A stretch of DNA of 51,135 nucleotides, from the NCBI RefSeq assembly GCF_900128995.1, contig NZ_FQUE01000015.1:1-51135 (forward strand), read 5' to 3'. Both the position numbers and the translations under genes were made by a program. Shown piece by piece: positions 34,740-50,964 of this stretch (the first letter of the stretch is position 1; each line of letters begins with the position of its first letter). The DNA comes from Loktanella atrilutea (lineage in GTDB: Bacteria > Pseudomonadota > Alphaproteobacteria > Rhodobacterales > Rhodobacteraceae). Under the pieces are notes generated by a model. It searched no databases and was not told where the DNA came from. It saw only the letters and a list, made by a program, of their open reading frames with translations.

Positions 34740-34998
34740 GAACGGCTTCCCCGGACTCTGAAACAAACCATCGCTTATGAGGAAAAGGGCGTACTTTGAA
34801 GGCTAAGCTTTTCCTCTTGGAAGTCAATTTCATCACAAGATACTGAAATCACGATGTTTTCGCGCGTTATATTCCTCGAGCCTGAAGTGTGCGTCACTGC
34901 AACTGACGCTGTGTGCTGCGCAAACCGACCTTTGGGACGCCTTTAAAAAGCACCAAAGTCTTAGTCCTGATGCCCACGTCAGACCGAGTGAAAACCTC

Positions 34999-35301
34999 GT
35001 GGAACGAAGTGGTGCCGAAGTCGTTCGTTCACACCAACCATTTGAAACAACCCGGATCAACGTCATTTCCTGTGAATTTTTAGCGTATCTAGCTGATCTG
35101 GAAAGGAAAATTTTATACGCAGCTAGAGAAAGCAGAAAGATGCAAGTTAATGCTGACCATGTCGTTTCATCTTCAGAGCAGTCCGACCAAAGTCGTTTCA
35201 CTGTGGCAAAATTCCGCAAGTCCCGCCGCTTCATAAAAGCCAACTGGATGATCGCGACATTTGTGATGGCCACGCTCGTGGGGTGGATGACTCTGAGATA
35301 A
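34999..35301 (+). CDS. possible tail-anchored small protein
   Basis: A 100-codon GTG frame in a low-GC stretch. It is charged and helical (EFLAYLADLERKILYAARESRK) and ends in a hydrophobic WMIATFVMATLVGW followed by MTLR, like a C-terminal anchor. No clear ribosome site. An opposing frame of 171 codons on the minus strand looks less protein-like. The AT-rich composition suggests acquired DNA. Confidence 0.35.
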   Translation: MERSGAEVVRSHQPFETTRINVISCEFLAYLADLERKILYAARESRKMQVNADHVVSSSEQSDQSRFTVAKFRKSRRFIKANWMIATFVMATLVGWMTLR

Positions 35302-35474
35302 TTGATGGCCCGCAGTGTGATGCTGTCCGCATTTGCACGCGCCATCAAGATTGGTCGTTCAAGGCAAGATGACGATCAGGTACCCCGGTTGATCGTCTGG
35401 CGATTGTTGGCACCCATAGCATGGGCGCCCTTATCTACCATTCCGAGGAGCGAACAGTTGGCCTAAGATGACTG

Positions 35475-35711
35475 CTAATGCAATTTGGCACCTTTAAGAG
35501 TCAAAGTTGCTCTACGGCTGCCGCTCATCTCGAACAAACCCTCTTCTCGACCCAGGATGAATCCGTCCAAGACATCGTCATATGTCCACCCCTGTGCTTC
35601 AACCCACTGCTGCACGTTTTCTAATACAAGGGAACCGGCTGGCAGGACCTGGTAGTGCTTCATCACCTCGAGGGCCATCCGCTTTTTCTCTTCATCTGTA
35701 GAATTGGTCAT
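35475..35711 (-). CDS. small protein with winged-helix-like C-terminus, 78 aa
   Basis: AAGGA lies eight bases before ATG 35711. The product reads EEKKRMALEVMKHYQVLPAG, a helical middle (WTYDDVLDGFILGREEGLF) and a terminal hairpin (EMSGSRRATLTLKGAKL), reminiscent of the wing of a winged-helix regulator. It is acidic and soluble. No family assigned. Its low GC matches the surrounding acquired segment. Confidence 0.55.
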   Translation of the reverse strand: MTNSTDEEKKRMALEVMKHYQVLPAGSLVLENVQQWVEAQGWTYDDVLDGFILGREEGLFEMSGSRRATLTLKGAKLH

Positions 35712-35841
35712 ACCATTATCCTTACATGTTTATCGGCCCTTCCAAATCTCCATCCTAAACTAGAATATAGCCGAGAAAGCCCTCGAAAAGTTGAGGGCCG
35801 GGCTTTTGCATTGGTGTGAGGTTATAAAAAGCCACACACCT

Positions 35842-36744
35842 TCAATAAGTTGGATGCCTGTCCAAGAGCCCCAATCGCTCGGCTCTGGTTTTCAACATCC
35901 GGACAGACGAGAGGGGCCAGGCTGAACCACCTGAAGGTGTCCGTTCACGCATTTGCTCAAGGGACGCACCGATCCGCTTCAGGGTAATTCCGGGGTCGGC
36001 CCGAACCATTCCCGCTACGATCGCGCAAAGGCGGTCAGATGGCTGCGCCTTGGGTGCACGGTCCATCACGGTCTCGCTCAGAAGCCCGTCCAAGACGAAC
36101 CTGCGGGCTGCCCGCTTTAACCGTGGCGCAGCCCACGGCTTGCTCGGGGGAGGTGTCTGACGGTTGATTGCCGCGGCGACCCGCGCCCACGACGTCTCCG
36201 GGCGAAGGCGTCTGACATAGGGGACCCATTCAGTCCCAACCGCATTGATCTGCTCGAAAAACTGGTCGTCACGCGCGCGGGCCATCGTCTTGATGGCCTG
36301 CGGGTCGCGGGCCTTGAGGTGGGGATTGCCGCCGATCCTGCCCGCCCGGCGGGCCACGGCAAGTCCGGCAATGGTCCGCTCGCGGATCAGCGCGCGCTCC
36401 AACTCACCGACGGCCCCCAGGATCTGAAGCGTGAACTTGCCTTGCGCCGTGGTGGTGTCGACAGGGTCACCCAAGGAGCGGAATCCGGCGCCACGTAGCT
36501 CCAGCGTTTCGATCACAGCTAAAAGGTGTGACACGCTGCGTGCCAACCGATCGATCCGGACCACGACCAGCACGTCACCTGACGTCATTCGTCCAAGAAG
36601 CCGGCCGAGGGCAGGGCGCTGGTGATCCCCCCCGGACGCCGTTTCCTCGATCACCTCCGCGGCCCCTGCAGCGCGCAGTGCTGCAACCTGACCTTCAAGG
36701 GTCTGTCCGGTGGTGGACACCCGCGCATATCCGATCATGGCCAT
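35842..36744 (-). CDS. serine recombinase (resolvase/invertase family)
   Basis: The 300-residue protein starts MAMIGYARVSTTGQTLEGQ with catalytic Ser10 and Arg8. It continues with ASGGDHQRPALGRLL, VVRIDRLARS, and GAVGELERALIRERTIAGLAVARRAGRIGG, all hallmarks of the resolvase catalytic domain and E-helix. A 150-residue C-terminal region with two helix-turn-helix-like segments replaces the short HTH of Tn3 resolvases. Such enzymes resolve multimers or invert segments of plasmids and transposons. It sits just left of the TA region and may have shaped it; I found no definite res site upstream. Confidence 0.9.
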   Translation of the reverse strand: MAMIGYARVSTTGQTLEGQVAALRAAGAAEVIEETASGGDHQRPALGRLLGRMTSGDVLVVVRIDRLARSVSHLLAVIETLELRGAGFRSLGDPVDTTTAQGKFTLQILGAVGELERALIRERTIAGLAVARRAGRIGGNPHLKARDPQAIKTMARARDDQFFEQINAVGTEWVPYVRRLRPETSWARVAAAINRQTPPPSKPWAAPRLKRAARRFVLDGLLSETVMDRAPKAQPSDRLCAIVAGMVRADPGITLKRIGASLEQMRERTPSGGSAWPLSSVRMLKTRAERLGLLDRHPTY

Positions 36745-37154
36745 TTGCTGGGCCCCGTTCTTTGGATTTCTGGCTCAGTATGCTCAATAACAGTTTAATA
36801 TGTCATCAGGAAACGAGCGTTTGAACGCAACCCAAACCTTGCAAAACACACCCCCCCATCCTTCGAAACCTGCGCAATTCCCCGCGGTATCCCGTAAAAT
36901 CTGCCCGAAGCGCACCGGGACCAGCTCCAGCCTCTGCCTCCACGCAGGCCTATCTTCAAAACCGGCCAGCAACGGACATGACACTACATTTTGCGTCCGT
37001 CTTGTCTGGCAAATATTTTAGATTGTAACGCTTTTCAAAATTTCTGTCTGGAATCCGTTAGGCTTCAGATGCGATAGGTGTCCGGCATCATTCCTTCCTC
37101 TTCAGCCTGGGCCCCCGGCATGCCAGTCCTCCTTCCGATCATGGGACCCGCATC
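36745..37154. other. intergenic region
   Basis: 410 bp between the divergent recombinase and DUF1612 genes, AT-rich near 36770-36800 and 37010-37050. A GCGTTTGAACGC inverted repeat lies at about 36818-36829. No supported gene. This would be the natural place for a crossover site. Confidence 0.4.
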
Positions 37155-38120
37155 ATGACCGGTCCTGACCTTCAGGCCACCCTCAAGGCCGAGATCCTCG
37201 CAGCCCGCCTCGAAGGGGCCCTGCGCGCGGATCCCGATCTCGCCGCGATCTGGCGTGCCGAAGCGGCCGTCCAGGAAGCCTGCGCCTCCGCATGGCTCGA
37301 GGACCTGCCATTGCGTCCCGAGGATCTGCTCTGCCGCGCGTTTCGCGATGAGATTGGAGATCCCGACCGCGATCGCGCCGCCATCGCCGCCACGGCCATC
37401 CTGCGCGGCCTGCACTCGCCCGGAGATCTGCGCGACGACACGGCGGTCGTCATGAAGCGGATCTGGGCCTTGGGTGGCGACACGGGGCCCTCACCGTTCA
37501 CGCCTGAGCATCTCGACGCCCTGCGCCAGGATCTGCGGACCGCGCCAGGACCCATCCTGGCCGGCCTTGCCGTGGCCCATCGCGTGGGCCTGATCGCGGC
37601 GGGCGCACCGGCCTGCGCTCGGCTGGCGTTCGTTGCCGCCGATCATGCCCTGCGCGGGGCAGGGGGCTTCATGATCGGAGACGCCGATCCCCATGACCTC
37701 GTCAGGGCCCCCCGCGGCGCCTGGGTGCTGCAACCCTCTCTCGCCCTCGTCGACAGCGGTTTCCGGCTCTGGTCCGTCAGCCGCCCCGATACCGTGGCAG
37801 CCCTTCTCGCCGGCCTCACCCACACCCTTGCCCGGGCCATGGGATCGCTTCCCATGCACCGCCGCTGGCTGAACCGGGCCCGTCACGCCAGGGACACCGC
37901 CCATGGTTCATCGCACATGCCTGACCTCGTCCGCCTTCTCATGATCCAGCCTATCATCGACACGGCCGATCTCGCCAAGGCCGCCGGCATCACGTCAAGA
38001 TCTGCGCTCAGGCTCATCGACACCGCAACCGACACCGCACTGATCCGCAAGATTACCTATCGCAACACCTACCGCGCCTGGGCCACCGAACCCTGTGCAA
38101 AGCTGCTAGGACTGGCCTGA
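37155..38120 (+). CDS. DUF1612/HTH DNA-binding protein
   Basis: A 321-residue protein of the DUF1612 type, common on plasmids of Rhizobiales and Rhodobacterales. The N-terminal half is helical (LEGALRADPDLAAIWRAEAA, LHSPGDLRDDTAVVM). The C-terminus is a winged helix (IIDTADLAKAAGITSRSALR, ATDTALIRKITYRNTYRAW). It is thought to act in DNA binding or regulation; no enzyme motif is seen. Its last 46 bp, through the stop and beyond, are repeated at 38817-38861 on the far side of higBA. Confidence 0.75.
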   Translation: MTGPDLQATLKAEILAARLEGALRADPDLAAIWRAEAAVQEACASAWLEDLPLRPEDLLCRAFRDEIGDPDRDRAAIAATAILRGLHSPGDLRDDTAVVMKRIWALGGDTGPSPFTPEHLDALRQDLRTAPGPILAGLAVAHRVGLIAAGAPACARLAFVAADHALRGAGGFMIGDADPHDLVRAPRGAWVLQPSLALVDSGFRLWSVSRPDTVAALLAGLTHTLARAMGSLPMHRRWLNRARHARDTAHGSSHMPDLVRLLMIQPIIDTADLAKAAGITSRSALRLIDTATDTALIRKITYRNTYRAWATEPCAKLLGLA

Positions 38121-38143
38121 CAGACGAGGCGGGTGTGATCGCC
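38098..38143. repeat. direct repeat A1, DUF1612 3' end
   Basis: This includes the last codons KLLGLA-stop of the DUF1612 gene and 20 bp downstream. An imperfect copy lies at 38817-38861. The two copies bracket higBA. Confidence 0.75.
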
Positions 38144-38163
38144 CCCCGTAGCAGTCAAGATCG

Positions 38164-38463
38164 CTATTCTGCTGTCATCAATGTTGGGACAGAAGATACA
38201 TCGACGTCCCGTGACGCATGCCACGCATCGTAAGCACCCTGCATCCTGATCCATACCAAAGGCGCATTTCCGAAGAGCTTGGCGAGGCGTACCGCGAGCT
38301 CGGGGCTGACGGGTTTGCGTTCGGCCAAAACGTCGTGAAAATGCTGACGCGAGATACCGAGCATCCGCGCGAGCTCAGTCTTGGATTTGCCTGTCGCGGG
38401 CACCACGTCCTCGCGCAATAATTCGCCCGGATGTGTTGGGCAACGGTCAGGGTCGCAGCTCAT
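38164..38463 (-). CDS. higA: HigA antitoxin (XRE family)
   Basis: A 99-residue HigA: the characteristic CPTHPGELLREDVVPATG start, then an XRE helix-turn-helix (SKTELARMLGISRQHFHDVL) and SPELAVRLAKLFGNAPLVWI. It neutralises HigB and represses its own operon. It lies 9 bp downstream of higB in the inverted toxin-first order usual for hig modules. The toxin is intact, so the module is likely functional. Confidence 0.93.
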   Translation of the reverse strand: MSCDPDRCPTHPGELLREDVVPATGKSKTELARMLGISRQHFHDVLAERKPVSPELAVRLAKLFGNAPLVWIRMQGAYDAWHASRDVDVSSVPTLMTAE

Positions 38464-38472
38464 TTTTACCTC

Positions 38473-38748
38473 CTAGTGATATTGCTCGAAGTCCAGGACA
38501 TAGGCATCGCCGTCGTGAAACTCGAAAGTGATGCACCACGGTCCGTTCACATGGGTTGTGTAACGTGTCGGTGTGTAGCCTTGCAGCGCGTGAAAATCGA
38601 AGCCGGGGAGATTCATGTCTTCGGGCACTGTCGCGGCATTAAGAGTATCGAGACGCCGCAAGATACGCTTATGAAGCCGTGCGTCGATCTTTGACTTTCC
38701 CGTCTCCCAGAGAGCTTTCAGCTGCTTGTGAGTGAAGGTCTTTATCAT
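38473..38748 (-). CDS. higB: HigB toxin (RelE-like mRNA interferase)
   Basis: A 91-residue HigB: MIKTFTHKQLKALWETGK, RILRRLDTLNAATVPEDM, FHALQG, the NGPWCITFEF strand, and DAYVLDFEQYH at the end. All conserved strands of ribosome-dependent HigB are present. A part of the higB 3' end/higA 5' junction (38434-38521) is duplicated at 40305-40392. Confidence 0.93.
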   Translation of the reverse strand: MIKTFTHKQLKALWETGKSKIDARLHKRILRRLDTLNAATVPEDMNLPGFDFHALQGYTPTRYTTHVNGPWCITFEFHDGDAYVLDFEQYH

Positions 38749-38754
38749 ACTTAT

Positions 38755-38796
38755 GTGTAGCCTGATAGCAGACAGGTGTAAATAAATTGGCTACAC
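38755..38796 (-). promoter_or_regulatory. higBA operator/promoter
   Basis: GTGTAGCC (38755-38762) and GGCTACAC (38789-38796) form an 8-bp inverted repeat immediately upstream of higB, enclosing an AT-rich stretch. A natural HigA-binding site. Confidence 0.6.
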
Positions 38797-38816
38797 TTTT
38801 TTCGTGAAAGGGCCAA

Positions 38817-38861
38817 CAAAGCTCCTGGGACTGGCCTGACAGCGCCGTAGGTGTGATCGCC
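38817..38861. repeat. direct repeat A2, copy of DUF1612 3' end
   Basis: CAAAGCT, then GGACTGGCCTGACAG, then GGTGTGATCGCC are shared with 38098-38143. It no longer continues a gene. With A1 it brackets higBA. Confidence 0.75.
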
Positions 38862-38869
38862 GCTTTCCG

Positions 38870-39283
38870 TCAGGCGCCCACGGCTCTGAATGGATTTGTG
38901 ATGCGCAGGACGTTTTCGATCAAAAGCCCGTCGTGCATATCCTCGGACATCAACTCCGTGCATCCCGCCAGAAGGGCGGCCCCCACGATCATGGCATCGT
39001 AGACCTGCAGGGTGTAGCGCTCAGCGATCGCCCGGCCGATATCATGCGTGTCCGGCGTCAGCGGCACGACCCTGCAGATCGCCCGGATGCTCTCCAGGAA
39101 CACGCCGGTCTCATCCCAGCTCATGCCGGCCTTCCGTCGACAATTGACCAGCACCTCGTTGAGCACCTGGACACTGACCGTGCCACCTGACTGCAGAACC
39201 TGTACGGCCCGGTCCCGTTTCGGGCCATCATCCAGCAGGTAGAGAATGATGTTGGAGTCAAGGAACCTATCGGCCATTCGCAT
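38870..39283 (-). CDS. vapC: VapC-like PIN-domain toxin
   Basis: A 137-residue PIN ribonuclease: FLDSNIILYLLD (first Asp), VLNEVLVNCRR (Glu), YDAMIVGAALLAGC (third acidic) and SEDM (fourth acidic). All four metal-binding positions are present, so it should be active. ATG 39277 may be used instead of 39283. The start overlaps the end of the AbrB-type antitoxin by a few codons, typical for vapBC. Confidence 0.92.
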   Translation of the reverse strand: MRMADRFLDSNIILYLLDDGPKRDRAVQVLQSGGTVSVQVLNEVLVNCRRKAGMSWDETGVFLESIRAICRVVPLTPDTHDIGRAIAERYTLQVYDAMIVGAALLAGCTELMSEDMHDGLLIENVLRITNPFRAVGA

Positions 39284-39494
39284 CGTCGCGGCTCAGGCGC
39301 GCCGCGGCAGGAAGCCTGCCGCGAAACGTCTCGAGTGAAGCGAGGATCTCCTCCGGCCGACGGTGCCGGGTCAGCGTCAGTCCACTCTCCCCGGGCTGCA
39401 GGTCGACCTGATCGCCCTCCTTCAATCCGAGCCTGCGGACCAAGTCCGCGGGGAGCCTCACGGCAAGGGAATTTCCCCATCTGGCAATCTGCAT
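39267..39494 (-). CDS. vapB: AbrB/MazE-type antitoxin (VapB)
   Basis: From ATG 39494 the 75-residue product reads MQIARWGNSLAVRLPADLVR, a swapped-hairpin AbrB DNA-binding domain, followed by GLKEGDQVDL and a toxin-binding tail (EEILASLETFRGRLP). It lies upstream of and overlaps vapC. A perfect inverted repeat (39511-39534) sits just ahead of the start. Confidence 0.9.
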   Translation of the reverse strand: MQIARWGNSLAVRLPADLVRRLGLKEGDQVDLQPGESGLTLTRHRRPEEILASLETFRGRLPAAARLSRDDANGR

Positions 39495-39510
39495 GGCGTT
39501 TCCAGTTCTG

Positions 39511-39534
39511 GATATACATTTAACAATGTATATC
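39511..39534 (-). promoter_or_regulatory. vapBC operator
   Basis: GATATACATT (39511-39520) and AATGTATATC (39525-39534) form a perfect 10-bp inverted repeat, 17 bp before the vapB ATG. A VapBC autoregulatory site is the obvious reading. Confidence 0.75.
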
Positions 39535-39761
39535 AAAAGCGCCATTCCCGCGTCAATCCCTGGCCCCTGCCACGTATTGGTGCCGGGCTATGTCATCACG
39601 GCCCAAGGGCTTGAAAGCAGGCAGAAGCACAGACATGGGCTCCAAGCGCTACGGTTCTTGAGATTTCCAAGAGATGCGCGTTCATCGCTTCGATGTTCTG
39701 GTGGTGGCGATAGCGTTCACAAACCTTCAACCGGTTCTGGAACGCTTATCCGCACTCCTGC

Positions 39762-40049
39762 CTAGTCGCGGTAGACTTCGCGGCGATGCCCTATCTTCAC
39801 CACCAGAATGCTGACCCGCTCATCTTCGATGCTGGCCACAATGCGATAGTCTCCGACGCGGTAGCGCCAGAGGTCGCCGTAGACCGCACCTTTCAGGGCA
39901 TGACCGATCAGCCGTGGATCATCCAATGGCGCCAGTCTGTCCCGCAGAAACCCAATGATCCGTTTCGCCTCGGATTTTCCGATCTTCGAAAGTTGCCTTG
40001 TGGCCGTGTCCGACAGATCAATCTGCCAAGCCAAGATCGCGCTCCACAT
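39762..40049 (-). CDS. relE: RelE-family toxin
   Basis: A 95-residue RelE: AWQIDLSDTATRQLSKIGK, RIIGFLRDRLAPLDDPRLIGHAL, YGDLWRYRVGDYRIVASIED, VVKIGHRREVYRD. The catalytic-surface Arg and the terminal Tyr characteristic of RelE are present. It overlaps the antitoxin gene, so the pair is translated together. Probably an active mRNA interferase. Confidence 0.93.
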   Translation of the reverse strand: MWSAILAWQIDLSDTATRQLSKIGKSEAKRIIGFLRDRLAPLDDPRLIGHALKGAVYGDLWRYRVGDYRIVASIEDERVSILVVKIGHRREVYRD

Positions 40050-40251
40050 CGTCTAAAGTGTGGACCGGCTCTTGCCCGCTTCTGACCCGCGCAATCACCT
40101 GCTCGGCCATGTAGACGTCCTCAAGGTCATCCAGATGCTCTTCGACTGCTTCGCGAATGTAGTAAGTCGCGGTTCTGCCGGTTCTCGATGAGAGGGCCTT
40201 GAGGCGGGCGTACGTTTCATCCGGAAGCCGGACGGCAGCTTGCTTTGTCAT
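40018..40251 (-). CDS. relB: RHH antitoxin of the RelB/StbD type
   Basis: From ATG 40251 the 77-residue product begins MTKQAAVRLPDETYARLKAL, a ribbon-helix-helix fold, and ends EPVHTLDDVERDLGLAD, the usual RelE-binding tail. GTG/ATG codons further upstream add residues foreign to the family. An inverted repeat at 40266-40283 lies upstream. Confidence 0.9.
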   Translation of the reverse strand: MTKQAAVRLPDETYARLKALSSRTGRTATYYIREAVEEHLDDLEDVYMAEQVIARVRSGQEPVHTLDDVERDLGLAD

Positions 40252-40265
40252 CACTGTTCTCCTGA

Positions 40266-40283
40266 TGGTATGCGTGTATACCA
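40266..40283 (-). promoter_or_regulatory. relBE operator
   Basis: TGGTAT (40266-40271) and ATACCA (40278-40283) form an inverted repeat with a six-base centre, 14 bp ahead of the relB start. Confidence 0.6.
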
Positions 40284-40304
40284 AAAGACTTTCGAAGGCG
40301 AGTT

Positions 40305-40392
40305 TGTTGGGCAACGGTCAGGGTCGCAGCTCATTTTTATCTCCTCGTGATATTGCGCGAAGTCCAGGACATCGGCATCGCCGTCGTGAAAC
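40305..40392 (-). pseudogene. fragment of a higB-higA junction
   Basis: 88 bp with 84 identities to 38434-38521, covering the end of higB (the DGDA...LDF...QYH part), the intergenic gap and the first codons of higA. Neither gene continues. With the intact copy it brackets the vapBC-relBE block as direct repeats. Confidence 0.85.
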
Positions 40393-40545
40393 GTGCAAGA
40401 ACGGTGATCATGAAACCGACAGGGACCGGCTCTCTGGCCGAAATCCCGTCGTAAACAGTGTGTCGATCCTTCGCCGGAATTGACTTTACGGCCATCCTCT
40501 TATCATGGGTGGTCCCATTCTGCCGCACACCCCGGAGCGACCCCC

Positions 40546-41712
40546 ATGAAGATCACTGTCTACGGCATCGGCTATGTCGGTCTGTCGAACGCCATCCTGC
40601 TGTCCCAGGCGCACAGCGTCACGGCCGTTGACCGGGATCCGGAGCGCGTAGCGCAGATCAACGCCCGCCAAAGCCCGATCGAGGACGCCGAGATCGCCGA
40701 CTACCTGGCGCACCGGACGCTTGACCTGACGGCCACCACCGATGGCGATGGTGCGGCGCGGGCCGCGGATATCGTCATCGTGGCGACGCCGACCAACTAC
40801 GATCCGGTGACCGACGCCTTCGACACCCGCACGGTCGAGGCGGTGATCGCGCAGGTCATCGCCGTGAACACCACCGCCACGATCGTCATCAAGTCGACGA
40901 TCCCGGTCGGCTACGTCACGGACCTCCGGGCACGGCTGAAGACCGATCAGGTGATCTTCAGCCCCGAATTCCTGCGCGAAGGGCGGGCGCTCTATGACAA
41001 CCTGCACCCCAGCCGGATCGTCGTGGGCGAACGCTCGGACCGGGCGCGCGTCTTTGCGGACCTGCTGCTGGAAGGGGCGATCGGCAAGGATGCAGCTGTC
41101 CTGTTCACCGATCCCGATGAGGCGGAGGCGATCAAGCTCTTCGCCAATACCTATCTCGCGATGCGGGTGGCCTTCTTCAACGAGCTCGACAGCTACGCGC
41201 TGGCGGCCGGCATGGACAGCCGGCAGATCATCGATGGCGTCAGCCTCGATCCGCGGATCGGCGGACACTACAACAACCCATCTTTCGGCTACGGCGGCTA
41301 TTGCCTGCCGAAGGATACCAAGCAGCTCCTCGCCAACTATGCCGCCGTGCCGCAGAACCTGATCCGCGCGATCGTGGATGCGAACCGGACACGCAAGGAT
41401 TTCATCGCCGAGGAGATCCTGCGACGCGGCCCGCGGACCGTCGGGGTCTACCGGCTCGTGATGAAAGCAGGGTCCGACAACTTTCGTCAATCATCGGTGC
41501 AAGGCATCATGAAACGGATCAAGGCCAAGGGTATCAACGTAATCGTCTACGAACCCGTCATGGAAGATACCCACTTCTTCGGCTCGGAGGTCGTGACCGA
41601 CCTCGCCGCCTTCAAGACGCGCAGCGACGTGATCGTCGCCAACCGGCGCACCGAAGATCTCGCGGATGTCGCGGACAAGGTGTTTACCCGCGACCTCTTC
41701 GGAGCAGACTGA
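40546..41712 (+). CDS. ugd: UDP-glucose 6-dehydrogenase
   Basis: A 388-residue short-type UGDH: NAD-binding [35 protein letters not shown], an [19 protein letters not shown] helix with the conserved Lys (about 197), and the active-site [11 protein letters not shown] with Cys253. It oxidises UDP-glucose to UDP-glucuronate with two NAD, supplying acidic sugar for EPS or LPS. It follows galU in the pathway, although 23 kb away. It stands alone between TA genes. The start at 40546 matches the family. Confidence 0.96.
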
Positions 41713-41755
41713 ATTACGGCTGGCGCTCAAGTTGATTGGATTTGTAATACATATT

Positions 41756-41774
41756 GGTACATATGGGGTGTACC
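41756..41774 (+). promoter_or_regulatory. parDE operator
   Basis: GGTACA (41756-41761) and TGTACC (41769-41774) form an inverted repeat about 20 bp upstream of parD, next to an AT-rich TAATACATAT stretch. Confidence 0.6.
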
Positions 41775-41795
41775 CCGAAAGCAAGGAGTGGTGCC

Positions 41796-42053
41796 ATGCC
41801 CCGAAACACCTCCATGACTGTCGGTGATCACTTTACCGGCTTCATCCGCAAGCAGGTTGAGACAGGGCGTTATGGCTCCGCCAGCGATGTTGTACGGGCA
41901 GGGCTGCGGCTTTTGGAGGAACACGAAGCCAAGGTGACAGCCTTGCAGGATGCACTCATTGCCGGAGAGCAGTCAGGGGCGCCGCGTCCGTTCGATAGCG
42001 AAGCTTTCCTGAACCGCATACATGCAAAGCATGTGGTCATCCGTGCCGAGTAA
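41796..42053 (+). CDS. parD: ParD antitoxin
   Basis: AAGGAG precedes ATG 41796. The 85-residue product is a standard ParD: MTVGDHFTGFIRKQVETGRYGSASDVVRAGLRLLEEHE, an RHH fold followed by a toxin-binding tail. It overlaps parE. A decayed copy of its 3' part lies 350 bp downstream (42396-42516). Confidence 0.93.
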   Translation: MPRNTSMTVGDHFTGFIRKQVETGRYGSASDVVRAGLRLLEEHEAKVTALQDALIAGEQSGAPRPFDSEAFLNRIHAKHVVIRAE

Positions 42054-42336
42054 CACCTATACGCTCGCGCCGCTGGCAGAGATCGATCTGGAAGAGATCT
42101 GGTTCTATACGTTTCAGACGTGGTCATTTGCGCAAGCAGACAACTACTTTCGCGATCTCCTTGCCACATTCGAGGCTTTGGGGGCGGGAGACAGGACAGG
42201 TCGAGACGTCGACGTACGGCCCGGCTATCTGAAATGCCCCGTGGGATCGCACATGGTCTATTTTCGGGAGCGGAAAGACTGCATCGAAATTATCCGCGTG
42301 CTCCATCAATGGCAGGACATCAGTCAGAACCTTTGA
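42022..42336 (+). CDS. parE: ParE toxin
   Basis: A RelE/ParE-superfamily toxin: YTLAPLAEIDLEEIWFYTFQTW, RDLLATFEAL, DVRPGYLKCPVGSHMVYFRE, IEIIRVLHQWQDISQNL. It is full length. ParE proteins poison DNA gyrase. ATG 42031 is an alternative start. The overlap with parD implies coupled translation. Confidence 0.92.
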   Translation: MQSMWSSVPSNTYTLAPLAEIDLEEIWFYTFQTWSFAQADNYFRDLLATFEALGAGDRTGRDVDVRPGYLKCPVGSHMVYFRERKDCIEIIRVLHQWQDISQNL

Positions 42337-42395
42337 AACGTCAGGACAAGCACCTCACACTGAGATCTGCGCGATGGCCGAAAGCATGACGATTT

Positions 42396-42516
42396 CTGGT
42401 GGAAGGCGAGGACAGGTATGAGCCTTGCAGGATGCACGTCTTGCTGGAGAGCGGTCAGGGGAGCCGTGTCCGTTCGCGTGCCACGCTGTCCTGCGCCGCA
42501 TCCATGCGAGGCACGG
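42396..42516 (+). pseudogene. decayed parD 3' fragment
   Basis: The frame reads ALQDARLAGERSGEPCPF...LRRIHARH, matching ALQDALIAGEQSGAPRPF...LNRIHAKH of the intact parD. The 5' half is missing and the spacing has small indels. Just after it, ATGGGG-TT-CCCCAT (42535-42548) is palindromic and CCATAGGG occurs twice. Confidence 0.7.
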
Positions 42517-42585
42517 GGGCTCTCCATAGGGCGTATGGGGTTCCCCATAGGGAGTAGGATTGCCAGCTCCGTCAGACGATCTGCT

Positions 42586-43521
42586 TTACAGTGACAAGAG
42601 TGAGCCTCCGCAACGATCTTCGGCATCCCCGATGACCCGGTAGAGGACGTCCACCGCCCTTTGCCCGTTCGATGCACCGAGTGTCTGGGGCGGGCTCATG
42701 TAAGGGACCACGGAAACCGGGCTGTCACCTGAGGAGGGCAGTTGGAGGTTTTCCAGCTTTCCCTGCACGTCCGTTTCCGTGTCGCGCCACGATGGTGCGT
42801 GACCCTCGGCCTTTTGCGCAATGCCGGTAAAAGCCCCGTACCCTGCGTAGGACAGAAAGAACTGGGGCGCCTGCAGGCACCGGGAGATCGCCATGCCGAC
42901 GCTTTGCAGGATGAACATGAAATCGTCCGGCGTGCACGACCGATGCAGTTTCGACGCATCCTTGATGGCGAACGAGAAGGCCTCCAGTCTCAAAGACCCC
43001 GACTTGCTGAGCTGGAAGATATATTTCTCCAGGGCGTCGATTTCGATCTCACCCTCGATGCCCCCCAGCCACCGGGGCTGGTAGAAATCGATCCGGCCTG
43101 GCGCAGGCTCCGTCCCACCTTGTTTTGACTTCAGCAGATCCCTCTTTTCCATTTGGCGCCTGACCTGGTCGATGCGTGCGATAAAATCCGATGCGACAAT
43201 TGGCTTGGTGATGTAGTCCGAGGCCCCTGCCGCGAACGCCACGTCGATGTCGGCTTTCTCAGAGAGCGCGGTCACCATCAGGATGGGGGTGTCCTTGTGC
43301 TCGGGCAGCGTGCGCACCCAGGAACACAAGGCCTCACCCGTCACGCCGGGCATCCTCATGTCGATCAGCATGCAGTCGAAAGCGGGCGTGGCCCGCAGGA
43401 TGACGGGTGCCGCCTGTCCCGCATCCTCCAGGAACGTCACGTCAGCATAGCCTGCCGACGCCAACGTCAGATTTATCAGCTGCAGAATGAACGGGTCATC
43501 GTCCACGACGAGTATCTTCAC
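42586..43521 (-). CDS. response regulator with degenerate GGDEF-like output
   Basis: A REC domain fills residues 1-120: VVDDD, phospho-acceptor Asp54 in MLIDMRMPG, Thr84, Lys106 in ITKP. The C-terminal 180 residues (IDFYQPRWLGGIEGEIEIDALEKY..., DDFMFILQSVGMAISRCL) have GGDEF-like helical spacing but no GGDEF motif, no I-site and no DNA-binding motif. A similar architecture, membrane-anchored, lies at 46.6 kb. The output probably works by protein contact. No sensor kinase gene is next to it. Confidence 0.8.
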   Translation of the reverse strand: MKILVVDDDPFILQLINLTLASAGYADVTFLEDAGQAAPVILRATPAFDCMLIDMRMPGVTGEALCSWVRTLPEHKDTPILMVTALSEKADIDVAFAAGASDYITKPIVASDFIARIDQVRRQMEKRDLLKSKQGGTEPAPGRIDFYQPRWLGGIEGEIEIDALEKYIFQLSKSGSLRLEAFSFAIKDASKLHRSCTPDDFMFILQSVGMAISRCLQAPQFFLSYAGYGAFTGIAQKAEGHAPSWRDTETDVQGKLENLQLPSSGDSPVSVVPYMSPPQTLGASNGQRAVDVLYRVIGDAEDRCGGSLLSL

Positions 43522-43621
43522 ATCACGTCTCTTTTCTTATTGGTGCTGGCAGGCCGAAGACACTGACGCAGATCGGAACCCGGGGCGCAGGCAGTCATAT
43601 CGGCAAAGGGGCGGGGTGAGC

Positions 43622-43840
43622 TCACCTGTGAAGCCGGGGATCACGAGCGAAGCGTTCCTGCCGTACATCTGCGACATACCCCCTTGCGCGGTTTGCCTCG
43701 AAAATCAGGGGCCGACTGATGACGGACTGAAGCTCGGCCAACAGGGCAATCACGACAACCGACGGATCTGGCAAAAGCAGATCGCTTTCAATGATGACCA
43801 TGGAAGTTCCACTGTCTGTGGCAACATCGACGCAGTTCAG
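43622..43840 (-). pseudogene. ccdB: C-terminally truncated CcdB toxin
   Basis: Overlapping the ccdA stop, a 72-codon frame reads LNCVDVATDSG...IIESDLLLPDPSVVVIALLAE...RPLIFEANRARGYVADVRQE, then RFARDPRLHR-stop. This follows CcdB (SDLL...RVVVPLL...LNPVFEVDGxxYVxxTQ) as far as the middle of the protein. The C-terminal helix, which in CcdB carries the gyrase-poisoning residues, is missing. Only CTG (43840) or an internal ATG (43801) are available as starts. The toxin is probably inactive. Confidence 0.6.
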
Positions 43841-44091
43841 CCGCTCCGGGTCGCGCTGTCCGGGGAGGCGCTGATGTCGGACAGCGGATGGTCATTGCGC
43901 GCGTGCCACGCGGCCTGGGCCACGAAGGCTTCAGCATTCTCGTCGAGCCACTTGCGCCGGCGGGCATCGGCAACGGCGCGTTGAAGGGCGGCATCAGCCA
44001 CGGCGGAGATGTTGATTCCAAGGTCCCTGGCGGCATCGAGGATGGCGGCATCGAGGATGAGCGACGTCTTGCGTTTGGATGCGGCAACCAT
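43837..44091 (-). CDS. ccdA: CcdA-like antitoxin
   Basis: AGGAG precedes ATG 44091. The 84-residue product starts MVAASKRKTSLILDAAILD, then AARDLGINISAVADAALQRAV, the RHH DNA-binding half, followed by WLDENAEAFVAQAAWHARNDHPLSD, the CcdB-binding tail. It is the usual antitoxin-first order, with the truncated ccdB overlapping downstream. Confidence 0.88.
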   Translation of the reverse strand: MVAASKRKTSLILDAAILDAARDLGINISAVADAALQRAVADARRRKWLDENAEAFVAQAAWHARNDHPLSDISASPDSATRSG

Positions 44092-44378
44092 CGGATCAAC
44101 TCCTGAAGATACCGCAAAAATACAGCGACCCGCTCGCTGCAGCAAGATGCAGCCACTGCAAGGGCTGCCGCATCAGTGTCCGCAGTACCGCGCCGTCGTG
44201 CAAGCCCCGTCCGGAACCCGCGCGCCGGTCGCGAACGGCGGGATGAACGCATGCCATTCCCGCCTGACATTCACGAAGGGCCTGACCGCCCGGTCGAAAG
44301 ACACGCGATAAACCTTGCGGCCGCGTGCCTCGACTCATTCCCGCCGCGCACAAGCATGCAGTCCGGCCGGGACCCGGT

Positions 44379-45470
44379 TCAGAACGCATACCCGATCTGA
44401 AGCGAAACCCCGACGGCCGTGTTGTCCGTGAACGTCGCACCGGTCGCACCGCCTGCATCGACGTCCGCGTCCCCCAGCCAGGCGTACTCGAGGCCACCGG
44501 TGATCTGCACCCGGTCCATCTGGTAGGTGGCGCCCGCCCCCAGGGAGACGAGACCATTGGTCGGCCCCAGGGGAGACGCCAGGGTCTGGTCCTCGTTGTC
44601 GTAAGAGACCTGGACGGCCCCCGACCAGGCCTTGCTGAGCTGGCGCCCGACACCCAGCGTGTAGGTGACGGTATCATCCTCGTAGCTCACAAGGCTGCTG
44701 CCCGATGCCGCGAGGAGGGCCGGGGGGGCCACATCGAAGGACGACCAGTCGACCCAGCGGACACTGCCGAAGACAAGCGTGTCCCGCGAGATCCCCGTCT
44801 GGACGTCCAGGTTGATCGATTGCGGCGTCGTGATTCGGGTGCGGGTGTCACCGGGCGCGATGTTCTCTTGCGTCGTCACGTCATGCCGGATCTCGGAATT
44901 GTACGTCAGGGCCGCGCGCAAGGCGATCCGGGGAATCTCGTAGGCCATCCCGCCGACGTAGCCGATGCCGGTGTCGTTGTCGGTCGTCACGGTGTATCCG
45001 GCAAGCGGCCCGAAAGCGGCCCCGTTCAGGGTGATGTCCGCCGACACGGTCTGTGCCCGCAGGCCACCGAAGACGCTGATGCCTTCGGTGAACTTGTAAC
45101 GCACCAGTCCTGTCAGGGCCGTGAATGTCGCATCCACCGAAGTGCCGCCAAAGACCGGGGAGGAGTTGCCGTAGTCGACAGAGGCCCCGAAAGGCCGGTC
45201 GAACATGATGGCATAGGACAGGGCCGGCGACAGATCTGCCTTGTAGCCCGCGGAGGGCAGAAAGAAGGTCTCGGCCACGTCCCCGGTCGCTTGCCCCGCA
45301 ATGTCGGTGCCCGAAACCGAAGGCGACGCCATGCGGAACGACAACTCCACGGATCGGCCCTCCTCGAACAGAAGGCCACTCGGCTGTCCGGACCAGTCAA
45401 TGCCACCCGCCCAGGCCGCCGTCGTCATGAGCGCGGAAAGGGCAGTCCCCGAGGCCAGCAAACGCATCAT
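44379..45470 (-). CDS. FadL/OmpP1-family outer-membrane porin
   Basis: From ATG 45470 the 363-residue product has a signal peptide (SGTALSALMTTAAWA), the N-terminal GGIDWSGQPSGLLFEEG hatch-like segment, then alternating strands such as SYAIMFDRPFGASVDYG and GLRAQTVSADITLNG. The final strand ends VGVSLQIGYAF with the C-terminal Phe used for barrel assembly. FadL-type porins take up fatty acids or other hydrophobic compounds. The product is in the usual FadL length range, slightly short. The substrate is not predictable. Confidence 0.9.
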   Translation of the reverse strand: MMRLLASGTALSALMTTAAWAGGIDWSGQPSGLLFEEGRSVELSFRMASPSVSGTDIAGQATGDVAETFFLPSAGYKADLSPALSYAIMFDRPFGASVDYGNSSPVFGGTSVDATFTALTGLVRYKFTEGISVFGGLRAQTVSADITLNGAAFGPLAGYTVTTDNDTGIGYVGGMAYEIPRIALRAALTYNSEIRHDVTTQENIAPGDTRTRITTPQSINLDVQTGISRDTLVFGSVRWVDWSSFDVAPPALLAASGSSLVSYEDDTVTYTLGVGRQLSKAWSGAVQVSYDNEDQTLASPLGPTNGLVSLGAGATYQMDRVQITGGLEYAWLGDADVDAGGATGATFTDNTAVGVSLQIGYAF

Positions 45471-45584
45471 TTCTTCAAACCTTCTGTATGTGACCCTCTC
45501 CAAGCCAGGAGATGCGGAAACGGGACATTGTCGAGCCAGCATGGCTGCTGCCCAGCGATACCCAATCCGAGCCGGTTTCCAAAC

Positions 45585-45734
45585 GTCAAAGCCGACCCGC
45601 CTCTACCGGAGAAGGCCCTGTGTCGCCGACGGGCAACGGGCCGGTTTCCAGGATGTGGCAGCAGTGGATCAGGCGGTCGAGGATCGGGGGCGTCATCCGA
45701 AGGTCACCGCAAACGGGAGCCCATTCCCTCTCCT
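45585..45734 (-). mobile_element. istB 3' remnant (IS21 family), copy 1
   Basis: On the minus strand this reads EWAPVCGDLRMTPPILDRL, then CCHILETG, matching the C-terminus of IstB (EWGQVFGD-KMTTALLDRL-HHC-ILETG). The rest of the transposon is absent. A similar fragment in the same orientation lies at 46360-46510; parDE sits precisely between them. Confidence 0.8.
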
Positions 45735-45750
45735 CCACGTGCGGTGTATC

Positions 45751-45764
45751 ATCATAAGTATGAT
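45751..45764 (+). promoter_or_regulatory. parDE operator
   Basis: ATCATA and TATGAT with AG between form a perfect inverted repeat, 27 bp before the GTG start of parD. Confidence 0.55.
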
Positions 45765-45791
45765 TAAGTGTGTCTTTCAGGAGGTGCCATT

Positions 45792-46055
45792 GTGGGTGCT
45801 ATCGAACGCATGACGATCACCATGCCAACCGAACTGGCCGAAGCTGTGCGTCAGACGGTTGCAGGGGGAGAGTACGCTTCAACAAGCGAAGTCGTCCGCG
45901 AAGCTCTCCGCGACTGGACGCGCAACCGAGATGCGGAGCGCCGTGATCTTGACGCTCTACGGGCCGCCATCAAGGCAGGACTGGACAGCGGGCCAGGTAT
46001 TCCTGCCGACCAGGTGTTTGCAGAGCTTCGCACTCGCTATGCGACAAAGACCTGA
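45792..46055 (+). CDS. parD: ParD-family antitoxin
   Basis: GTG 45792 has AGGAGG seven bases upstream; this gives 87 residues. The product reads MTITMPTELAEAVRQTVAGGEYASTSEVVREALRDW, the ParD RHH fold, then AALRAAIKAGLDSG-like toxin-binding helices and ends RTRYATKT. It is followed after 3 bp by a frameshifted parE. The antitoxin is intact. Confidence 0.92.
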   Translation: MGAIERMTITMPTELAEAVRQTVAGGEYASTSEVVREALRDWTRNRDAERRDLDALRAAIKAGLDSGPGIPADQVFAELRTRYATKT

Positions 46056-46058
46056 TCT

Positions 46059-46348
46059 GTGCCACGCCTGGTGATCCTGCCCATTGCGCGGGCCGACCTG
46101 ATCGAGATTGGTGATTTTATCGCCCAGGACAATCCCGAGCGCGCCCTGTCGTTCATGACCGAGATCGAGGACAAGATGCAGGAGGCTGCTAAGCGCCCTG
46201 AAAGCTTCCCTGCGCGTGACGATGTGTGTCAGGGCTCCGCTCAACCCGGCATGGACGCTATTTGATTTTCTTTCTCAACATAGACGAGGAAGTACAGATT
46301 GTTCGCGTGCTGCACGGGGCCCGGGATCTACCCAGAGCTTTCAGATGA
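46059..46348 (+). pseudogene. parE: ParE toxin, single 2-bp frameshift
   Basis: A GTG start at 46059 gives PRLVILPIARADLIEIGDFI...SFMTEIEDKMQEAAKRPESF-PARDDV, normal ParE. Within a GTGTGT run at about 46219 the frame shifts. Deleting one TG restores SGLRSTRHGRYLIFFLNIDEEV and IVRVLHGARDLPRAFR-stop at 46346-46348, a complete 95-residue ParE. A single TG slip therefore disables an otherwise perfect toxin. A recent event, a phase-variable site or a sequencing error are the options. Confidence 0.85.
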
Positions 46349-46359
46349 TTGCGCTGCAT

Positions 46360-46510
46360 GTCAAAGTCGGCCCGCCTCCACCGGGGAAGGCCCTGTGTCG
46401 CCGACGGGCAACGGGCCGGTCTCCAGGAGGTGGCAGCAGCGGGTCAGGTGGTCGCGGAGCGGGGTCGTCATCCGAAGGTCACCGCAGACGGGAGCCCATT
46501 CCCTCTCCTT
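46360..46510 (-). mobile_element. istB 3' remnant (IS21 family), copy 2
   Basis: The minus strand reads EWAPVCGDLRMTTPL, then HLTRCCHLLETG, closer to intact IstB than copy 1. It starts 12 bp after the parE stop. Direct orientation relative to copy 1. Confidence 0.8.
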
Positions 46511-46617
46511 CAAAGGTGACGCGGTACGCGCCTGGAGTTCCGGATTGCCGGAAGTCCTCCGGATGCCAACAGTCTGACTTGCGTCGTCAGAGCCGTGTCA
46601 CACCCGCGACGCCGGCC

Positions 46618-47838
46618 TCATGCGCCAGAGGCCTGCGTCAGGCGGGGCATGGTGCGCGCGTACTTCGACAGTATGCGAGCCTCTGCCGCCTCCAACGCAA
46701 GTGTGCTGGCGCGGCTGGCACGGTCGGCTTTCGGACCGGAGAGCGGGACCGGCGTGCCGATCGACGCACCGCACCACACATCGTCGTCCTGAGGGTTGTG
46801 ACGCTGTGCATCGGGATCCGAGTCCCGGACACACTGCGTGACAAGGGCCTCGATACGGGGGAGGTCGATCGGGCTTCTCGTCGGGGTCACCACCAGCAGA
46901 TCATTGTCGGCATTAAAGGCCATCATGGTCCCCTGGGGCTGCAGGCTGGCGGCGGTGGCCGTGGCAATGCTGTCCAGCAGCCGGTCCAGGTGTACGGGCG
47001 CGTAGCGGGCGCTCAGGACGTCCATGCGATCGATCCTGACAGCAAAGATCTGAAGCGTGGCAGCATCCTTTTCAGGCAGCAGGCCGATGTAGTTTGAAAG
47101 CGTCAGGTAATCGGTGCGGCTTGTCGTCATGCCCTGGGCTGCGAGGCCCGGGATCTCGGGCGAGGCCGTCGCTCGGACATTTGCCTTGAACACGTCCCGC
47201 GCAGCCTCGAAACGCTGGCCGAGGGCCGTGACGTCAAACGGCTTGGTCGCGTAATCCGTCGCACCGGCGCGCAACGCCTCGGCGATGTGGTCCATGTCCC
47301 GGCGCGCCGTCAGCATGACGATCGGCACATCCTGGTAGGCCGGCAGGAGACGCACACGGTGACACAGCTCGATCCCGCTCATCTGCGGCATGCTGATGTC
47401 GAACAGAAGGTAGTCGAAGGTCTTGGCGGGGTCTGCCAGCAGGGTGAGCGCTTCCGGGGCGGAGGGAACCGTGACGACCGTGATGTCGCCCGCGGTCTCC
47501 GCGATCGTGTCCACCAGGTCGAGAATGAAAGGGTCGTCATCGACGGCCAGGATCGTGAAGCGGGCCTCGGGCGCGCGCTGCGGGAGCGGCGTGACGGGCC
47601 GGGCGACAGACGGCTCTTCGGCATCGATGGCACCCTGAAGGTCCGTCGCGGTCTGCGCTCCGCTGCGGGCGGTGAAGCGGCCAGCCACGACATGCGCCAC
47701 AGCCATCACGACGACGCTGGCAGACCCCGACAGCGTGTAAACACCGAGCAACGCCCAGATCGGGGCTCCGGCGGTGAACGCCGCCGCCGCGCCGAAGAAG
47801 CCAACCGTGACGCCGATCAGAAGGTAACCAAGTATCAT
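46618..47838 (-). CDS. membrane-anchored response regulator with degenerate GGDEF-like output
   Basis: Two N-terminal membrane helices (about 2-22 and 28-50) and a linker precede a REC domain (92-215): AVDDDP, phospho-acceptor Asp147 in LLFDISMPQ, Thr177, Lys199 in ATKP. A C-terminal domain follows (LQIFAVRIDRMDVLSARY, TMMAFNADNDLLVVTP, WCGASIG) with the GGDEF fold pattern, but NADND replaces the catalytic loop. A receiver tethered to the membrane is rare. It is a likely paralogue of the regulator at 42.6 kb; both may sense or transmit via protein contact. Confidence 0.8.
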   Translation of the reverse strand: MILGYLLIGVTVGFFGAAAAFTAGAPIWALLGVYTLSGSASVVVMAVAHVVAGRFTARSGAQTATDLQGAIDAEEPSVARPVTPLPQRAPEARFTILAVDDDPFILDLVDTIAETAGDITVVTVPSAPEALTLLADPAKTFDYLLFDISMPQMSGIELCHRVRLLPAYQDVPIVMLTARRDMDHIAEALRAGATDYATKPFDVTALGQRFEAARDVFKANVRATASPEIPGLAAQGMTTSRTDYLTLSNYIGLLPEKDAATLQIFAVRIDRMDVLSARYAPVHLDRLLDSIATATAASLQPQGTMMAFNADNDLLVVTPTRSPIDLPRIEALVTQCVRDSDPDAQRHNPQDDDVWCGASIGTPVPLSGPKADRASRASTLALEAAEARILSKYARTMPRLTQASGA

Positions 47839-48458
47839 GAACTCTATCCAGCCGTTTGCGTTATTTTCAACCTGAAGTTGTAAGTTGTATCAAAAACCGG
47901 ATTTCCGAAGGGGTTCAAGAGAGAATCGTCGGAATGTCACGTTGTTTCAGATACTTTGCCCACAGCCGGCTGCTCTCGTCGGGCTACAGAGCAATCAAGG
48001 TCAACGTGATGGTCTCATTGTGTCAAAATTGAGGAACCGGCCTGATTGTCACCGCACAGCGTCGCGCAACCCCAGCGAAAGGTCGCAGTCCGCGCCGAAG
48101 GACGACCGCGAAAGCAGGCCTCCGACCCGCCCCGGCCTCTTTTGCCACCACAGGCCAAAGCCACAGGCGAGGCTGCAGATACAACAGCGATTTTTCTGCA
48201 CAAACCGCTCTGAAATGCGCCATTGTACCGTGAGCCCGCCCCCGCACCGGCGGCTTTCGCCCCTGCACGAAAACCATCCTTGAAACTTCATGCCCACGAC
48301 ATAAAAACATCCTAGAATTAAACGTAAATTTCGTCGACGTGACGGATGAAAGGGCTACCGTGCACTGCACGATTGCCAGATATGATGTTTCGTCCACGCG
48401 CCTGATCGGGGGTCGATGATTCGCTGCATCGATGCCGTTAAAGATATGGGACTGTTTG
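47839..48458. other. 620-bp upstream region of the sugar transferase
   Basis: No supported gene. AT-rich at 48300-48340 and 48440-48475; the promoter of the sugar transferase is probably here. It separates the divergent membrane regulator and sugar transferase genes. Confidence 0.45.
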
Positions 48459-49157
48459 ATGACGATACATTATGAAGAGCTGACGCTGGACAAGACAGCA
48501 GAAGTCGTCGCGCGCCCCACGTCCCCCGACATCACGAAACCGGTGCCGTTCTGGGCTTACCGCCGCATGGGCAAGCGGACCTTCGATCTGACCGCCGTCC
48601 TGTTGTTCCTGCCCTTCGCCGCCCTCATCATCGGCGGCCTGGCCGCCTGCATCGCGCTTCTGGGTGGCGCACCGTTCTATACCCAGGAAAGGGTCGGACG
48701 GGGCGGCACCACCTACCGGATCTGGAAACTCCGGACGATGGTCCAGGACGCCGACCGCCGTCTGGAAGAGCACCTGCGCACCGATCCCGCCGCGAAACAG
48801 GAATGGGACCACACCCAGAAGCTGCGCAACGACCCCCGCATCACCCCGATCGGGCGCTTCCTGCGCGCCTCCTCGATGGACGAACTCCCCCAGCTCTGGA
48901 ACGTGCTGCGGGGCGACATGAGCCTCATCGGCCCGCGCCCGATGATGCCCTCCCAGGTCACCCTCTACCCCGGCACCGCTTACTACCAGCTGCGCCCCGG
49001 CATCAGCGGCAGCTGGCAGGTCTCCGCCCGCAACGAGTCCAGCTTCGCCGAACGCGCCGTCTTCGATACCTCTTACGACCACAAGGTCTCGCTCAGCGAA
49101 GACATGCGCATCTTCGTGGCCACCATCCGCGTCGTCCTGCGCGCAACAGGCCACTGA
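48459..49157 (+). CDS. exopolysaccharide-priming sugar transferase (undecaprenyl-phosphate)
   Basis: ATG 48459 (MTIHYEELTLDK) gives 232 residues. One membrane helix (LTAVLLFLPFAALIIGGLAA) precedes the bacterial sugar transferase domain: QERVGRGGTTYRIWKLRTM, the LRNDPRITPIGRFLR motif, SMDELPQLWNVLRGDMSLIGPRP, and RPGISGSWQVSARN. It transfers a sugar-1-phosphate from a UDP-sugar to undecaprenyl phosphate, the first step of EPS or O-antigen units. galU and ugd in this window feed the same pool. Start codon context is weak. Confidence 0.93.
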   Translation: MTIHYEELTLDKTAEVVARPTSPDITKPVPFWAYRRMGKRTFDLTAVLLFLPFAALIIGGLAACIALLGGAPFYTQERVGRGGTTYRIWKLRTMVQDADRRLEEHLRTDPAAKQEWDHTQKLRNDPRITPIGRFLRASSMDELPQLWNVLRGDMSLIGPRPMMPSQVTLYPGTAYYQLRPGISGSWQVSARNESSFAERAVFDTSYDHKVSLSEDMRIFVATIRVVLRATGH

Positions 49158-49374
49158 CCCGCAAAGGGTCTGACCCATCGACAGAGCCGTGCCGCGTGCC
49201 TCGACCAATCGCGACCCCATGCGGGGAAGTGATGCCCGCGCTTTGCCTGCCGTCTGTCAGCCCCCTACGGGCCGCCACACTCCGGCCCCGGATTCACCAT
49301 TCAGACAACCTGCCACCGCCCCTTTCGCCTGCAAGACGTGACACCCATTACGATCTCACAGGTGAGCAGCTGCG

Positions 49375-50140: not shown

Positions 50141-50204
50141 ACAGGTTTGTTCGTGGGTCGAAACTCTTTCGAAAGGGGTGCCGGATTAAAGTCGGTTCAG
50201 ACCA

Positions 50205-50924: not shown

Positions 50925-50964
50925 AGACCTGACGTCGGCACGGTCGCCGGAGCGGCAGACCGTG

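Follow-up and report, generated by a model that had tools for sequence, protein, structure and literature searches.

The window analysed here is one entire contig (NZ_FQUE01000015.1; 51,135 bp) of the 4.2-Mb, 46-contig genome of Loktanella atrilutea, and the subject of this report is a cluster of small toxin-antitoxin (TA) modules on this contig that lie among direct repeats made from the ends of neighbouring genes. Most of the best plasmid matches to the contig come from Rhodobacterales, and we infer that the contig is a plasmid, or at least plasmid-like. From left to right, the region contains a serine recombinase (minus strand), a resident gene of the HTH_13 type (plus strand, ending in repeat A), higA-higB (minus strand), repeat A', vapC, vapB, relE and relB (minus strand), repeat B', a UDP-glucose dehydrogenase gene (plus strand), parD1-parE1, repeat P', a response regulator, ccdA with ccdB-like DNA, a FadL-type porin gene, repeat R, parD2-parE2, and repeat R'. 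That is, the region holds six TA modules, counting the ccdAB-like module near 43.7-44.1 kb.

An initial annotation of this DNA had described four repeat pairs with mutually unrelated sequences, and these pairs do exist, each scoring far above its shuffled controls. Pair A (38098-38143 and 38817-38861) has 39 identities in 46 columns and a score of 31 vs. 18 for the best of 200 shuffles; pair B (38434-38521 and 40305-40392) is identical at 84/88 positions, can be extended to 95 bp with 88 identical (38434-38528 and 40305-40399), and scores 81 (shuffles at most 16); pair P (41911-42036 and 42394-42518) has 98 identities in 127 columns and a score of 66 (at most 21); and pair R (45585-45737 and 46360-46512) is identical at 139/153 positions and scores 125 (at most 20). 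Four pairs fall in 34001-51135, compared to two in 1-17000 and none in 17001-34000, and another 420 kb of the genome (21 stretches of 20 kb) yielded eight pairs, which gives a Poisson chance of about 4e-4 for four or more. Together, the shuffled controls and the density in the rest of the genome rule out a chance origin of the repeats. Over their full length, the copies of A, B and R are 85-93% identical and those of P 77%; in divergence, A, B and R are indistinguishable (Fisher p 0.23-0.82), whereas P exceeds R (p 0.006). No recombination site is repeated between the units, no crossover sequence common to the repeat pairs was found, and ten comparisons past the repeat edges revealed no convincing similarity, the two strongest being 38144-38433 vs. 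38862-39000 (reached by 3/300 shuffles) and the right flanks of R and R' (15/300).

Repeat A consists of the 3' end of the resident HTH_13 / RHE_PE00001-like gene (37155-38120, plus strand; PF11972 E 1e-6) plus 23 bp. 'DUF1612' was the initial label for this gene; Pfam places HTH_13 in the C-terminal part of the protein, NCBIfam gives a partial RHE_PE00001 match below its cut-off, and two relatives (L133 and L134) share 36-37% identity with it. Between A and the plus-strand copy A' lie higA, the antitoxin gene (38164-38463, minus strand; TIGR02607 E 6.5e-24), and higB, the toxin gene (38473-38748, minus strand; PF05015 E 3.3e-13), exactly as had been claimed for higBA and the two copies of this gene 3' end. 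The intact copy of pair B comprises the higB 3' end, the higB-higA junction and the first higA codons, B' is a remnant of that junction, and the two enclose most of higB, A', vapBC and relBE. The enclosed genes, all on the minus strand, are vapC (PIN; 38870-39283; PF01850 E 1.4e-13), vapB (AbrB/MazE type; 39267-39545; PF04014 E 8.6e-13), a relE/parE-type toxin (39762-40049; PF05016 E 5.9e-15) and a relB-type antitoxin, given here as the ORF from its first start (40018-40314; NF048017 E 5.9e-31), although the true start may be further in. The repeat that was said to place vapBC-relBE between the higB-higA junction and its copy is thus real, but since B runs naturally into higB and the order is the interleaved A-B-A'-B', pair B is not readable as a simple second bracket.

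The parDE modules show a similar mixture. Repeat P lies inside parD1 (41754-42053, plus strand; PF03693 E 2.9e-31), which is followed by parE1 (42022-42336, plus strand; PF05016 E 2e-12) and then by P' (plus strand), which had been described as a decayed parD copy after parE. P' is indeed the decayed remnant of a second parD, with no parE remnant seen after it, but given that P is inside parD1 and P' follows parE1, parE1 occupies its normal place and nothing is bracketed by P. In contrast, parD2 (45768-46055, plus strand; TIGR02606 E 5e-15) and parE2 (46059-46342, plus strand) lie closely between R and R'. Judging from two ParE relatives that match in two frames (46059-46235 and 46229-46342), parE2 is frameshifted and its toxin is probably inactive. 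The bracket, which was said to consist of istB 3' remnants, is slightly longer than proposed, and istB explains at most 90 of its 153 bp: istB homology in other genomes covers at most positions 56-145 of R, and the first 55 bp, common to both copies, had no significant match in other genomes. The DNA match of relatives is confined to 38159-38800 for higBA, i.e., between the end of A (38143) and the start of A' (38817), and to 45749-46337 for parDE2, between the end of R (45737) and the start of R' (46360). Since homology stops a few bases inside the repeats in both cases, both modules are compact units between repeat copies, and their relatives occupy other contexts, several of them on small plasmids. 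Hence, the single geometry proposed for all four pairs applies to A, which closely brackets higBA, and to R, which closely brackets parDE2, but not to P', a remnant, nor to the interleaved A and B.

The search of the window for further repeats, as the initial annotation had suggested, yielded two more pairs. One (11941-12083 and 15388-15527) is a gene 3' end plus a terminator-like hairpin whose copy lies 3.4 kb downstream, on the other side of two protease genes (M8-type and serralysin-type); the gene that ends there presumably encodes a VPLPA-type tail, a motif for which NCBIfam gave no match. The other (690-766 and 2077-2155; 79 bp, 80%) surrounds a PIN-like ORF (1229-1699) that falls just below the Pfam cut-off, and a brnT toxin gene is found nearby at 237-497. 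Because the gene-end pair brackets proteases, the copying of gene ends on this contig is not restricted to the vicinity of TA genes. Conversely, the ccdAB-like module (ccdA at 43837-44145, minus strand; PF07362 E 2.5e-15; plasmid matches annotated ccdA/ccdB, with the ccdB-like DNA adjoining) has no bracketing repeats. Among the other genes of the region, the UDP-glucose dehydrogenase (40546-41712, plus strand; TIGR03026 E 2.2e-102 and PF03721) is a resident gene between TA modules. The response-regulator region (42553-43534) has a 94% copy on another contig (C25:954-1941), where it adjoins an istB end, and the end of the window (50079-51135) matches the start of contig C8 at 96% identity, which may reflect a repeat that interrupted the assembly.

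The recurrence of bracketed modules outside this genome was assessed in two sets of loci. In the first set (74 fetched loci of relatives, with one duplicate kept, L167 being L127), 4/74 TA modules were bracketed vs. 65/3700 random control places; two of the four belong to a dispersed REP-like family of one genome, and the others are L147, described below, and L156. The genome with this family (G092; L189, L190 and L193) carries an abundant 88-90 bp palindromic REP-like repeat around TA and other genes. The second set came from a HigB-alignment scan of species genomes that detected 349 relatives, of which the best 80 loci were kept (72 after removal of eight already seen), and 11/79 of its modules were bracketed vs. 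162/3950 control places. Six of the eleven are copies of tRNAs or flanks (L216, L231, L250, L251, L263 and L276), L269 lies among dispersed repeats, and the remaining brackets are L212, L230, L236 and L246, of which L212 and L236 concern modules other than the queried higBA. A more direct test, in which the 500-bp flanks of the HigB-based set were compared with each other (score of 40 or more; loci also present in the first set retained; 78 of the 80 loci scored, two having too little flank), identified 7/78 higBA loci vs. 6/2340 control places. Four of the seven (L250, L251, L263 and L276) represent one tRNA-Arg site in the Mesorhizobium group, the rest being L211, L216 and L269; with that site counted once, 4/75 loci remain (p 1.6e-4).

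Individual cases resemble the geometry of pairs A and R. In Paenihalocynthiibacter styelae (L147, the same locus as L211), the 3' end of an SbcC-like gene precedes higBA, and a 65-bp copy of that end comes after it, with a longer copy beyond an ORF that we take to be transposase-like. Locus L216 (4069-6309) reads brnT, flank, higBA and a shortened copy of the flank; two TA toxins of different families thereby adjoin. In L231, a tRNA-Ser (2662-2751) precedes about 1.2 kb with other DNA and higBA, and just after higA the 3' half of the tRNA recurs as an exact 65-bp copy, outside the 500-bp limit of the flank test. More broadly, 7/80 higBA loci are adjacent to a tRNA gene vs. 224/8000 random places, with four of the seven being the one tRNA-Arg site.

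That site allowed filled and empty alleles to be compared within one group. We searched 119 genomes for the Mesorhizobium tRNA-Arg (TCT) site and fetched 20 stretches chosen by match, which makes 24 with the four earlier loci. In 7/24 of these loci, the tRNA is followed by higBA and then by a whole or worn copy of the tRNA, while in L321 and L323 the left flank, a single tRNA and the right flank are directly joined; L317 resembles an empty site as well, but its right flank is only 96 bp at 82%. The left homology stops at the last tRNA base in many genomes among the matches listed, and a phage-type integrase overlaps the tRNA end in one genome (L328; 10 ORFs scanned downstream of tRNA-Arg, 10 genomes), hence the site looks like an insertion hot spot. 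On the left-flank tree of the 24 match-chosen loci (493 columns), the filled state changes seven times, at least five of them forced by well-supported branches, and is not clustered (7 changes vs. a shuffled mean of 6.2); gain and loss count alike here, and recombination of the flank is possible. We also considered that the insert might be the end of one larger island and dropped this idea on the layout of G439, in which an integrase adjoins the tRNA and a different contig carries a truncated higBA accompanied by a tRNA copy, perhaps from a second insertion. Empty sites with one repeat copy, the check proposed by the initial annotation, were therefore found at the Mesorhizobium tRNA-Arg but not for the window.

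We propose that the TA cluster of the window arose by successive capture of modules at resident edges through one-sided homologous recombination, with remnants of the displaced edges left behind, a reading that we favour tentatively and that falls just short of what we would call probable. Specifically, resident sequences would have received compact TA modules (about 0.6-1.4 kb) at their edges, one after another. Every arriving DNA piece would have joined a module to a stretch homologous to the resident edge, be it the end of the HTH_13 gene, higBA, UDP-glucose dehydrogenase/parD, or R. Homologous exchange in that stretch, coupled to a non-homologous joint at the other end, would place the new module beside an intact edge, and of the displaced allele only a short piece would persist beyond the module (A', B', P' and R'). 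The route could be homology-facilitated illegitimate recombination or unequal exchange between related plasmids, neither of which would need a module-encoded enzyme, and addiction may select against loss of the insert via recombination between the repeats. We favour this reading because it can explain why all four remnants exist, why they are 77-93% identical to the intact copies and why no site is common to them. Also in its favour are the mutually unrelated sequences of the pairs, the homology limits just inside A/A' and R/R', and the L133 plasmid described below, in whose incomplete gene table a UDP-glucose dehydrogenase-recombinase-HTH_13 neighbourhood lacks any TA gene. It also retains part of the original idea that TA cassettes enter or leave by duplicating a resident edge, in that the geometry recurs outside this genome and empty sites exist at the tRNA-Arg, even though there is not one common geometry.

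A', B', P' and R' all lie on the far side of the intact copy, as displaced remnants should, but for plus-strand genes this follows from the definition, and the anchor is found in no donor. Several observations weigh against such capture. No donor allele for the window was found. Nor did an empty allele turn up among nine genomes of the genus, counting that of the window itself, or among 295-394 genomes sampled from the family, where the searches scored two candidates per genome, so that misses are possible. In the 295 sampled family genomes, the HTH_13 gene gave short matches only (none longer than about 51 bp in any genome but its own), and relBE gave short or weak matches only in the sampled genomes. 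As for the relatives, one of the four collapsed events of the flank test, L269, lies among dispersed repeats (74 self-hits, including the full-length one), the tRNA cases look like integrase-type sites and may not share the route of the window, and more than 20 Mesorhizobium higBA matches, among the matches listed, are away from the tRNA-Arg, with the two fetched (L336 and L337) carrying no copy of the tRNA or its flanks. The flank test on the first set identified higBA 1/21, vapBC 0/36 and parDE 1/14 (the last a REP-like repeat), and therefore the pattern is not general for TA modules; the implied TA-specificity is not supported on this count, with enrichment in relatives for higBA only, as well as on the bracketed proteases. 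In addition, as parE2 is frameshifted, addiction by ParE2 is unlikely to keep the R bracket now. Finally, the A-B-A'-B' order needs fewer events under tandem duplication.

The latter is the strongest rival for A and B, although as an account of the whole cluster we find it rather doubtful. Under this explanation, one tandem duplication of 38098-38816 (the HTH_13 gene end plus higBA) made both A' and B', vapBC-relBE later replaced the second higA part, the rest was lost, and P' and R' are separate old duplications. A-B-A'-B' is the order expected from such an event, the divergences of A and B are compatible with one age (p 0.23), and the difference between P and R noted above fits separate events. 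The missing higA part also bears a weak likeness to 38862-39000, the strongest of the edge comparisons, but this segment codes for part of VapC and was one of ten places compared. Neither there nor elsewhere in these comparisons did the lost higA and higB portions of the second copy leave a convincing trace, and the explanation further requires an exact replacement by vapBC-relBE and leaves R unexplained.

A second alternative, and an unlikely one for the window as a whole, is that the modules are mini-islands, integrated site-specifically at the 3' ends of protein or tRNA genes by an integrase acting in trans or since lost, with attL/attR-like copies left. An intact gene 3' end, cargo and a distal copy are what A/A' around higBA displays; P lacks this trait, and for B it is doubtful, B' being upstream of higB and not downstream of the higB 3' end. 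The tRNA-Ser of L231, with its exact copy beyond higBA, and the hot-spot appearance of the Mesorhizobium tRNA-Arg, with the phage-type integrase of L328, also point in this direction. We consider integrase-type insertion likely where a tRNA is involved and possible for A. On the other hand, TA genes fill the window brackets and no integrase gene is among them, and the window repeats have no common site. That R and R' stem from the termini of IS21-type elements, with parDE2 as their cargo or trapped by them, is suggested by the istB-like 3' sequence in both copies but appears very unlikely: complete IS21 element ends were not found at R/R', where the istB 3' fragment, at most 90/153 bp, is inside a larger composite repeat. 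Since R and R' share the extra 55 bp and the same edges, they were copied as a composite.

The initial annotation had named as a possible agent the serine recombinase at 35.8 kb (resolvase/invertase type; 35842-36744, minus strand; NCBIfam XisF-type N-terminal match below cut-off). Its relatives (55-59% identity) adjoin vapBC on Dinoroseobacter and Thioclava plasmids, near repABC, and a relative in Limimaricola variabilis adjoins an HTH_13 gene, repA and repB; the recombinase is probably a resident plasmid-backbone gene. A dedicated TA-cassette system driven by this enzyme is hardly credible and we rejected it, for despite its proximity and its frequent adjacency to vapBC, 0/23 vapBC modules sharing a fetched locus with it were bracketed (24 loci listed, one without vapBC; L167 omitted as a duplicate of L127; recombinase distant or broken in L161 and L179), the pairs have no common crossover sequence, and the L133 plasmid has a UDP-glucose dehydrogenase-recombinase-HTH_13 neighbourhood with no TA gene listed in 11.7 kb, albeit in an incomplete gene table.

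A broader hypothesis is that compact type II TA modules, higBA above all, are a widespread class of mini-inserts in Alphaproteobacteria that have no integrase and settle next to the edge of a gene, bringing a copy of this edge with them. The edge copy would allow pop-out and addiction would retain the insert, and hence addiction modules would be the cargo that survives between direct repeats, a generalization that we consider unlikely at present. The question at stake is how small TA modules can move when they encode neither a transposase nor an integrase. Gene-edge repeats would represent a readable scar of insertion and, with filled and empty alleles of the Mesorhizobium tRNA-Arg site occurring within one group, the gain and loss of modules by plain recombination, and their retention by addiction, can be tested directly.

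With respect to known systems, we recognised no description of TA modules bracketed by gene-edge copies in the titles and abstract starts of the open-access literature. The proposal that the window represents a new kind of cassette array is not supported, since no common site or enzyme was found. Integrons carry serial TA units in an array, which the window resembles; unlike in integrons, no common recombination site was seen in the window, where no search was aimed at an integron integrase. Small variable segments are short inserts bounded by direct repeats for which empty alleles exist, with 10-18% of segments repeat-flanked (PMC2884548); the window inserts are alike in being short and direct-repeat-bounded, whereas most repeats of that class are shorter than 30 bp. 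No mention of toxin-antitoxin was seen in the main text of that paper. Direct-repeat-flanked segments are nevertheless already known as a class from it, and the novelty of our observations is limited accordingly. TA systems are also reported to keep islands such as SXT, SGI1 and CGI48 in place (PMC2654960, PMC5006074, PMC8978831), a chromosomal insert being held by a TA module that it carries, as may be the case here, although the window inserts are little more than the TA module and have no integrase. A further parallel is with the effector-immunity arrays of the Vibrio cholerae type VI secretion system (T6SS), for which sequential displacement or homology-facilitated illegitimate recombination has been proposed (PMC5361080). 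While the anchor in those arrays is a conserved region upstream of the effector-immunity module, and the window, a single contig, has type II TA pairs at several edges unrelated to each other, in both systems modules of a toxin and its protector appear to be added beside a homologous anchor, with older remnants displaced to the far side.

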